Part shown: one piece after another, positions 1,787 through 3,524 of the stretch
Layout of the letters: each line of letters begins with the position of its first letter
How positions within the stretch are numbered: the first letter of the stretch is position 1
DNA from: a virus
IMG/VR virus record: IMGVR_UViG_3300010354_000131
Coordinates: 1 to 50,263 of that record
Direction: 5' to 3' (one strand)
Length of the DNA stretch: 50,263 nucleotides
The notes under the pieces: generated by a model
What the model was told of the DNA's origin: nothing
What the model saw: only the letters and a program-made list of their open reading frames with translations
Databases searched by the model: none
Program-made: the position numbers and the translations under genes

Positions 1787-1972
1787 CTACTTTGAGTTAT
1801 CTGTTTTATAAAATCCATTACCCTTAAACTGTATTCCAAACGGTGTGAAGTGTCTTTGTAATCTTTTACCGCAACTTACACATAGATAGCTAGGTTCAAC
1901 TGAGGTTATAGATCTTTCTTTAGATACTATCTTGTCTGGAGAACAGTCACACTTGTACTCGTATATTGGCAT
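1787..1972 (-). CDS. FmdB-type zinc ribbon protein
   Basis: A 61-residue protein starting MPIYEYKC, with Cys pairs CDC and CVSC about 23 residues apart and the ER motif between them. This is the layout of the FmdB/CxxC_CxxC putative regulatory zinc ribbon family. The family's biochemical role is not settled; small DNA- or RNA-binding regulator is the usual guess. Its ATG overlaps the stop of the upstream thermonuclease as TAATG, so the two are translationally coupled. The C-terminus (NGFYKTDNSK) matches the short tails of family members. Confidence 0.8.
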   Translation of the reverse strand: MPIYEYKCDCSPDKIVSKERSITSVEPSYLCVSCGKRLQRHFTPFGIQFKGNGFYKTDNSK

Positions 1973-2379
1973 TACTTACCGCTCTTTTTTCTCTTCTCTG
2001 CAAGGGCTGGGAAGTCTTTAACCTTAGTTTCACCCATGTATCCCCAAGCATAGCCATCATCAATCATCATTTCATTAACAGACTTTGTGTTTCCATTAAC
2101 ATATACCCAGCCTAAAATTCTTCCATACTTTTCAGACGAATCTGGCTTTTCTGTTTTTATAACAATCTCTGTAGCATCTTTTAAGCTTTTCTTAAGGTAC
2201 TCTTTTGATTCAATCCCTAAAGTTTTTTCAAATTTATCTGTTGTTCTAGATTCTGGGGTATCAATTCCAGCTAACCTAACTCTTTGAGAATACGATATGC
2301 TAAAACCTAGATCTATATCGACATCTATGGTATCTCCATCTACGACATTAGTAATCTTTTTAATACGATACTCGTACAT
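1972..2379 (-). CDS. Thermonuclease (staphylococcal nuclease-like, TNase domain)
   Basis: A 135-residue SNase-fold nuclease that would hydrolyse DNA or RNA phosphodiesters in a calcium-dependent way. Visible active-site pieces are DGDTIDVDID (metal-binding Asp), VRLAGIDTPES (Arg and Glu) and EKYGRILGWV (second Arg), in the family order. I place the start at the ATG at 2379 because AAGGAG lies just upstream. A longer frame from 2415 exists, but its first 12 residues come from the structured leader. There is no signal peptide, so it acts inside the cell; host DNA or RNA breakdown is a plausible role. The ribosome site can pair into a hairpin (see 2384-2480), suggesting translational control. 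Confidence 0.9.
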   Translation of the reverse strand: MYEYRIKKITNVVDGDTIDVDIDLGFSISYSQRVRLAGIDTPESRTTDKFEKTLGIESKEYLKKSLKDATEIVIKTEKPDSSEKYGRILGWVYVNGNTKSVNEMMIDDGYAWGYMGETKVKDFPALAEKRKKSGK

Positions 2380-2383
2380 AACT

Positions 2384-2480
2384 CTCCTTAAATTAAAGGA
2401 GCAGTTTATACACATGCTCAGGTGTATCCACGGGTAGCGACCCGCATAGTCTGCGACTCCCCAGTGACGGGGGGCAGACT
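2384..2480 (-). ncRNA. Structured leader: four hairpins ahead of the thermonuclease gene
   Basis: Four consecutive inverted repeats fill this unusually GC-rich stretch. H1 (2448-2480) pairs AGTCTGC with GCAGACT and has an inner CCCC/GGGG. H2 (2431-2444) pairs CGGGT with ACCCG. H3 (2408-2427) pairs ATACAC with GTGTAT. H4 (2384-2401) pairs CTCCTT with AAGGAG, hiding the ribosome site of the thermonuclease. A TATAAT lies directly upstream at 2484. It may be a 5' untranslated regulatory element or a small RNA. I recognise no known riboswitch class in it. Confidence 0.6.
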
Positions 2481-2483
2481 ACT

Positions 2484-2489
2484 ATTATA
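2484..2489 (-). promoter_or_regulatory. Putative -10 (TATAAT) upstream of the structured leader
   Basis: A perfect TATAAT sits between the hsp20 stop and hairpin H1. The region upstream is A/T-rich with no good -35 and no extended TG. The predicted start, about 2477, would fall within the 5' arm of H1. Confidence 0.4.
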
Positions 2490-2493
2490 CTAT

Positions 2494-2913
2494 TTATTTG
2501 ATTTTAATTGTTTTTGGCTTTTTGTCTTCAGGTACAATTTTTTCAACCGTAACAGACAAAAGTCCATTTTTTAACTCAGCAGAGGTGACTTCCATATACT
2601 CACCAAGCGCAAATGTGCGTGTGAATTTACGGGCAGCAATTCCTTTATGAATTGCCTCACCAGAATCTTCTACAGAAACCTCTCCCTTAATAACAAGGGT
2701 TCCGTTATCTACAGATACATCAACGTCCTTTTTGTCAAAGCCAGCCAAAGCTAGGTCGACACGAAATACGTCATCCTCTACCTTTACAATATTGTAAGGT
2801 GGGTATGATTGATGTGATGCTGTTGTGTGTACTGAGTTTAGGCGATCAAACATATCGTTGAAGCCAATAAAAAATGGATCCTTAAAAAGATCCAATGTAA
2901 AATGTGTTACCAT
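2494..2913 (-). CDS. Small heat shock protein, Hsp20/alpha-crystallin family
   Basis: A 139-residue ATP-independent holdase of IbpA type. The alpha-crystallin domain spans about residues 38-130: YPPYNIVKVEDD at its start, LALAGFDKKDVDV in the middle, GIAARKFTRTFAL, and the family signature LKNGLLSV near the end. The C-terminal KTIKIK carries the I-x-I/V-type anchor. AAAGGAGG lies seven bases before the ATG, a near-perfect ribosome site that suggests high expression. The gene has its own promoter and a 5' hairpin leader. Phage Hsp20 genes are known mainly from cyanophage T4-like viruses; here it probably protects virion assembly or host proteins late in infection. Confidence 0.92.
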   Translation of the reverse strand: MVTHFTLDLFKDPFFIGFNDMFDRLNSVHTTASHQSYPPYNIVKVEDDVFRVDLALAGFDKKDVDVSVDNGTLVIKGEVSVEDSGEAIHKGIAARKFTRTFALGEYMEVTSAELKNGLLSVTVEKIVPEDKKPKTIKIK

Positions 2914-2940
2914 TTTATTCCTCCTTTAAGCGAATAAATT

Positions 2941-2974
2941 AATATATGGGCCCCTTGTGGCGACCCATATATAT
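2941..2974 (-). promoter_or_regulatory. 5' hairpin of the hsp20 mRNA leader
   Basis: The inverted repeat ATATATGGG / CCCATATAT encloses a GTCGCCACAAGGGGC loop region with an inner GCC/GGC pairing. It begins about five bases after the promoter -10, so the hairpin would form at or very near the mRNA 5' end. Its GGGTCGCCAC matches GGGTCGCTAC in hairpin H2 of the thermonuclease leader. A role in 5'-end protection is an inference. Confidence 0.55.
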
Positions 2975-3002
2975 TATATCAAAAAAACTATTTGTTTGCC
3001 AA
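2973..3002 (-). promoter_or_regulatory. Promoter for hsp20
   Basis: On the minus strand TTGGCA (2997-3002; five of six -35 consensus bases) and TATAAT (2973-2978) are 18 bp apart, with TG at the extended -10 position. The predicted start is about 2966-2968, at the base of the leader hairpin. The -35 overlaps a CCAATT/AATTGG inverted repeat at the end of the upstream gene, which may act as a weak terminator. Confidence 0.65.
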
Positions 3003-3194: not shown

Positions 3195-3524
3195 CTAGTT
3201 ATTTGGAACGTCAGGCATGTCTATGTCGACAAGCCCCATTTCTTTTGCTAAAATTTTTCCTTCTTCAGATAAATGAAATGTTGCCTGAAGATTTTCGTCA
3301 TACTCGACCTGCAATAGATCTAGTTCATAAAGCCTCATTAAAGACTTATCAACATACTCATGGTGCGCTTCCCAAAGTTGTGGAGCAACCTCTTTTGCCT
3401 TTTCTTGAATAGCAAATATGAACTCGCCATTTTCATCTAGGCCTTCCATGGTAATAGCACCAATTTCAAGATAGTGCTGAAGTTCCTGGTTCTGCATGTC
3501 TTCCTCGTCCATTTCATCTCCCAT
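3195..3524 (-). CDS. Hypothetical acidic protein (109 aa)
   Basis: Not recognised. The N-terminus is strongly acidic (GDEMDEEDMQNQE), and the rest is predicted mostly helical. The last 50 residues (LMRLYELDLLQVEYDENL, then FHLSEEGKILAKEMG) look like a winged-helix end, with a wing followed by a final helix. The ATG at 3524 has only a distant GGAG. A better-placed GGGAG precedes the internal ATG at 3512 (MDEEDM), so the protein may be 105 residues. It lies immediately downstream of the tRNA. Confidence 0.65.
   Translation of the reverse strand: MGDEMDEEDMQNQELQHYLEIGAITMEGLDENGEFIFAIQEKAKEVAPQLWEAHHEYVDKSLMRLYELDLLQVEYDENLQATFHLSEEGKILAKEMGLVDIDMPDVPNN

Follow-up and report, generated by a model that had tools for sequence, protein, structure and literature searches.

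We describe element D, a short RNA element that compensatory changes in its two interlocked helices mark as an H-type pseudoknot, and that, within the collections searched, forms a very widespread phage family for which we found no earlier description. It came to light in the leader of a thermonuclease gene on the minus strand of a viral contig (the window, meaning the whole 50,263-nt stretch that was analysed), where it is the last structured part before the ribosome binding site.

The intergenic stretch of about 100 nt between the Hsp20 and thermonuclease genes of the window has a strong predicted fold (z -3.6 to -4.3). An earlier note, made from the letters of the DNA, had described four adjacent inverted repeats at 2384-2480, and all four lie on the minus strand at those positions and appear in the predicted fold; the 131-nt leader stretch reaches -46.3 kcal/mol against -30.5 ± 3.7 in dinucleotide shuffles (z -4.32), with 0 of 200 shuffles as good. 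The last repeat (2401-2384) can indeed hide the AAGGAG at 2389-2384, as the note had it. As drawn, however, its third and fourth repeats are not the conserved structure, because stem 2 of D takes bases of the fourth, and the third is itself stem 1 of D. Comparison with relatives instead resolves the leader into a predicted promoter, hairpin A at the 5' terminus, hairpins B and C as optional modules, and pseudoknot D placed 19-20 nt before the start codon (Table 1). Hairpin A is built from an outer stem CTGC/GCAG, an inner stem CCCC/GGGG, a conserved loop GTCACT and a bulge AGTC.

Table 1. Features of the thermonuclease leader and flanking genes, in positions of the window
Feature	Position	Strand	Basis or remark
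Upstream gene, Hsp20 small heat-shock protein	2494..2913	-	phrog_432, E 2e-40
Promoter -10 box TATAAT	2484..2489	-	6 nt before hairpin A CTGC in 91/94 relatives
Predicted transcript start	near 2478-2477	-	from -10 box position
Hairpin A, predicted transcript 5' terminus	2446..2482	-	folded alone, z -3.97; nearly invariant core
Hairpin B, GCGGGTCGCTACCCGT, optional module	2430..2445	-	both-sided changes at 5/7 pairs
Element D, H-type pseudoknot	2399..2427	-	both stems covary
D stem 1	2427-2422 with 2413-2408	-	third repeat of the earlier note
D stem 2	GAGCA 2419-2415 with TGCTC 2403-2399	-	covariation
D loop 3 end AAAC	2407-2404	-	
Alternative hairpin CTCCTTTAATTTAAGGAG over ribosome site	2384..2401	-	strength not conserved
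Ribosome binding site AAGGAG	2384..2389	-	sequence
Thermonuclease start codon ATG	2379-2377	-	19 nt past D, downstream of every hairpin
Thermonuclease-family gene	1972..2379	-	phrog_452 endonuclease, E 4e-49

Relatives begin at the position of the ATG at 2379-2377, with MFEYR or MYEYR. A longer reading frame from 2415 was rejected: its start falls inside a loop of D, at a codon whose middle letter is A, T or C in relatives. Elsewhere in the window, at 2940-2978 (-), the Hsp20 gene has its own strong promoter, TTGGCA-18-TATAAT, with a 5'-terminal hairpin directly after it, and its leader shows a weak likeness to freshwater-2 RNA (RF02980; 20.1 bits, E 1.4). Toward the contig end, 1-1710 (-) holds a long repetitive sequence rich in Ala, Thr and Val, perhaps a tail or surface protein.

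The protein search gave 80 close nuclease loci, about 35 of which carry the same leader and the remainder of which (most of L034-L080) lack it; the leader sample itself, 94 distinct leaders, comes from a separate scan for hairpin A. In 91 of these 94, exactly 6 nt separate the TATAAT box from the downstream CTGC of hairpin A, even where the upstream gene is different, and because this spacing is fixed the RNA is predicted to begin with hairpin A. Behind it stands hairpin B in 68 leaders (assigned by spacing), hairpin C in 7, both in 14 and neither in 2, so that B is replaced or joined by C in some relatives. Element D always follows the hairpins, in 3 leaders as a variant outside the search pattern, and ends 18-24 nt, mostly 19-20 nt, from the called start. 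The gene behind the leader is a thermonuclease in 71 cases and an FmdB-like zinc-ribbon gene in 12, the others being different or uncalled. With only 71 of 94 leaders preceding a thermonuclease, and many nuclease relatives lacking the leader, the tie between leader and nuclease supposed in the earlier note does not hold.

Comparison of homologous leaders, which the note had suggested, revealed a conserved, structured leader with compensatory changes. Across 37 leaders, 94% of cells are paired, against 39-47% in slid controls, and 50 cells carry both-sided changes, against 22 ± 3 in shuffles; in helix 1 of hairpin A such changes occur at 2 pairs. At one locus (L005, upstream of 3001) the stop codon of Hsp20 runs straight into the end of D: the leader, D included, is missing as far as the final bases ahead of the ribosome site, through either natural loss or an assembly artefact.

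Element D follows the 27-nt motif NNNC-CU-RRRYA-W-GNNN-n-AAAC-URYYY. Its conserved letters are the CU of the first loop (L1), an A-U last pair in stem 2, a one-base A/U linker and the AAAC that precedes the 3' strand of stem 2; an A-rich third loop of this kind is a feature of some pseudoknots. Stem 2 is near-constant within leaders and variable elsewhere (GAGCA/UGCUC, AAGCA/UGCUU, AGGCA/UGCCU, GGACA/UGUCC, GGCCA/UGGCC, GGGUA/UACCC and others), its letters being partly set by the search pattern, which required GAGCA and TGCTC, and the variants were taken from further copies nearby on the contigs retrieved. In 62 diverse, fully paired copies, a set selected for pairing, 130 cells show both-sided changes against 32 ± 4.5 in shuffles, and slid controls are 27-41% paired. 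Another 447 matches were picked by their loop letters only, with no demand for pairing, and there a stem 1 of 3-4 pairs is found in 234 of the 244 with a full stem 2 and in 38 of the 203 without.

Searched against Rfam at the gathering threshold, the whole window returns tRNA only and nothing on the leader, and at E values up to 10 the leader region has no plausible match to A, B, C or D, which bears out the earlier statement that it fits no known riboswitch class. Among 12 viral and 18 genome loci, most of them bearing D, no Rfam match falls on D, and no account of it turned up in searches of open-access texts, whether by sequence letters or by theme.

The exact D pattern occurs in at least 119 stretches of viral contigs, and all 144 of the 144 matches listed there have a stem 1 of at least 3 pairs; in genome contigs it occurs in at least 116 stretches, with stem 1 present in 84 of the 118 matches listed and the rest chance-like. 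These collection counts, like the total of more than 100 viral contigs with D, are lower bounds, and many of the loci belong to related freshwater phages. Thirty virus records hold 63 D matches, 1-5 copies each, against 0 for the reversed pattern; the window has a single copy. Matches that lie outside annotated genes were found in named phages of Staphylococcus, Lactobacillus, Anoxybacillus, Bacillus, Arthrobacter, Mycobacterium, Rhizobium, Paracoccus, Synechococcus, Nostoc, Microcystis and Moorella, and D is also present in crAss-like and other gut phages. Copies of D stand as spacers in two arrays with CRISPR-like repeats (L371 (-), near 3421-3444, and L424:212), consistent with D being carried by invaders.

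A blast search of E. coli genomes gave no convincing copy, a weak test since stem 1 varies. Matches in Vibrio phages lie inside annotated coding sequence and look like chance, and those in Pseudomonas genome contigs likewise appear to be chance matches in coding sequence. Several D-type copies per locus, some with a covarying stem 2 or altered loops, are seen in L116, L121, L162 and L375; those of L375 lie among tRNA genes, and the contig of L162 also has a tmRNA match.

The placement of D in genomes is far from uniform. A same-strand gene ends within 150 nt upstream of it in 219 of 274 cases, against 25 for the opposite strand, and the distance from stop codon to D peaks sharply at 5-9 nt, with almost none at 0-4 nt. 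By a simple gene caller, the median spacing is 13 nt to the upstream gene and 60 nt to the downstream gene, and D falls at convergent ends 35 times versus 19 times at divergent starts. A tRNA lies 5-14 nt downstream of 18 copies and upstream of 1 (control 5/1500). Of the 20 tRNA cases, 14 concern tRNA-Asp, and since these come largely from freshwater phage contigs that look alike, they are not independent; in unrelated Arthrobacter and Nostoc phages, D again stands about 4-5 nt ahead of a tRNA. Hammerhead cores are found downstream of 8 copies and upstream of 0 (control 14/5000), namely in L329 (two), L356, L381 (two), L402, L410 and L087. Stem III of the hammerhead abuts D in most of these, and by our reading of the sequences cleavage would fall 6-8 nt past D in most. 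In at least 6 phages, among them phages of Staphylococcus, Lactobacillus and Bacillus, and D6E, D sits between portal or minor-head genes and the scaffold and capsid genes. Three bacterial contigs have a DUF2800 RNA (RF02960) 1-2 nt past D (L343:5432-5592, L365:2824-2981 (-) and L433:1691-1849 (-)), the L343 copy of D having a weak stem 1; by analogy with hammerheads and tRNAs, this RNA may be self-cleaving or processed.

What these contexts have in common is a stable knot that bounds a segment of RNA. The explanation that we favour, plausible if still short of probable, is that D serves as an exonuclease roadblock delimiting phage RNA segments. D would be mechanically stable, with an A-rich third loop that can sit in the groove of stem 1, and would mark the edge of a segment by halting exoribonucleases there. 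If a cut is made a few nucleotides past D, by a hammerhead or, ahead of a tRNA, by RNase P, the upstream message would come to end in D, and the remaining 3' tail of about 5-9 nt would be too short for a 3'-5' exonuclease to grip; such enzymes are expected to be resisted by a stable structure with a short tail. When it sits in the nuclease leader, D may act with the 5'-terminal hairpin A to shield or insulate the message's 5' portion and to separate the ribosome site from RNA lying upstream, and a strong competing hairpin over that site may additionally tune translation. D is on the 5' side in leaders, where a pure 3'-cap model does not fit, and neither the leader family nor most operon copies have a known cut site separating D from the gene that follows. 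It is conceivable, though we are more doubtful of this broader claim, that bacterial viruses use D generally as a cap for RNA ends, one that forms stable 3' ends when placed after a stop codon and ahead of a cut by RNase P, a hammerhead or something else, and that the nuclease leader has put to use again as a 5' insulator.

Were D a device for 5' ends only, hairpin A and D would shield the downstream message from 5'-end-dependent decay, and in late operons stable messages for scaffold and capsid would have D as their new 5' boundary. The position of hairpin A at the predicted transcript start (91/94) and of D directly before scaffold and capsid genes in unrelated phages would suit such a role, as would RNase J, the obvious 5'-3' enzyme, which is above cut-off in 30 of 49 D-bearing genomes against 8 of 31 chance-match genomes, an association that is confounded by ancestry and not strict. 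Yet the hammerhead and tRNA cases leave D on the upstream cleavage product, and D keeps close to the upstream stop codon, not to the downstream start, so we consider a purely 5' role unlikely. Because RNase J passes the cut-off in only 30 of the 49, blocking it cannot be the whole story, and we rejected it as the sole target of D, many D-bearing genomes being without it. The sharp 5-nt lower limit of the stop-to-D spacing raises another reading, that D, 5-9 nt past the stop, acts on termination, read-through, recycling or re-initiation; frameshift and read-through pseudoknots have this same spacing. No consistent open extension frame follows, however, with an immediate second stop in 14 of 125 cases and most extensions short, and D also occurs without a nearby stop codon, for example in leaders. 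We accordingly set aside a stop-codon read-through or frameshift pseudoknot and judge a ribosome-linked role in general improbable.

The earlier note had suggested, from the hidden ribosome site, that a nuclease whose early expression harms the host would benefit from translational control. Elaborated as a switch, this would have the CTCC/GGAG hairpin hide the site and the formation of D open it, perhaps with a ligand or protein. The two structures are mutually exclusive, because bases 2401-2399 are used by both the hairpin and stem 2 of D; most called leaders have D 18-22 nt from the start, and the hairpin is strong in several relatives and in the window, where its 6 bp and -7.6 kcal/mol place it among the stronger ones. 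The predicted hairpin does cover the site in the window, but among 60 distinct leaders the hairpin ranges from 0 to -8.9 kcal/mol (median -3.5), and the conserved pairing of the ribosome site that would be looked for in a sequestering leader or RNA thermometer was not found in them. The hairpin is not what selection has kept; it could tune translation where it is strong, as is possible in some relatives. Moreover, downstream genes vary and the same D precedes tRNAs and ribozymes, where no ribosome site is involved, which makes a switch quite unlikely. Control of a toxic nuclease cannot be the general role of D, because D mostly occurs outside such leaders, after stop codons and before tRNAs or hammerheads. 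A metabolite riboswitch is unlikely, since the downstream partner differs from case to case (tRNAs, ribozymes, capsid, nuclease and other genes). An RNA that, in the manner of the put sites of phage HK022, acts on RNA polymerase to bring about processive antitermination would need no particular downstream gene and could stand near promoters and before untranslated tRNAs, as D does, but it would not be expected to keep tight spacing to stop codons and cleavage sites, and we regard it as very improbable.

Among known RNAs, DUF2800 RNA adjoins D in three loci, and freshwater-2 RNA weakly resembles the Hsp20 leader next door, and neither matches A, B, C or D. The pseudoknot in the mRNA leader of T4/T2 gene 32 is also of H type and upstream of a ribosome site in a phage message, but it autoregulates a single gene, whereas D, with conserved loop letters of its own, stands before or after many genes, tRNAs and ribozymes. 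Type III toxin-antitoxin RNAs (ToxI, CptI) are, like D, short H-type pseudoknots, and they occur in phages and their hosts (PMC4627078, PMC5772629). They differ in acting beside their toxin gene, whereas in the contexts examined D is found mostly as single copies at gene ends, and no ToxN-like gene was noticed among its annotated neighbours.

The roadblock reading brings D close to two other systems. The 3' end of MALAT1 is a triple helix followed by a tRNA-like RNA cut by RNase P, and it shares with D a stable A-rich tertiary element just upstream of an RNase P cut; its fold is another one, and D is found in bacterial viruses, where its protection is putative. The xrRNAs are compact pseudoknots that halt exonucleases, as D putatively does, but the known examples come from RNA viruses that infect eukaryotes, and they block 5'-3' enzymes; we know of no sequence likeness between them and D. 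If it is borne out, a pseudoknot without an Rfam match, whose fixed loop letters are common to phages of Firmicutes, Actinobacteria, Cyanobacteria, Alphaproteobacteria and others, would allow phages to define, with one small structure, where messages end and how neighbouring genes such as portal and capsid are balanced, and would suggest a role for phage hammerheads in making capped 3' ends. D would then play the part in bacterial viruses that MALAT1-type 3' triplexes and xrRNAs play elsewhere.
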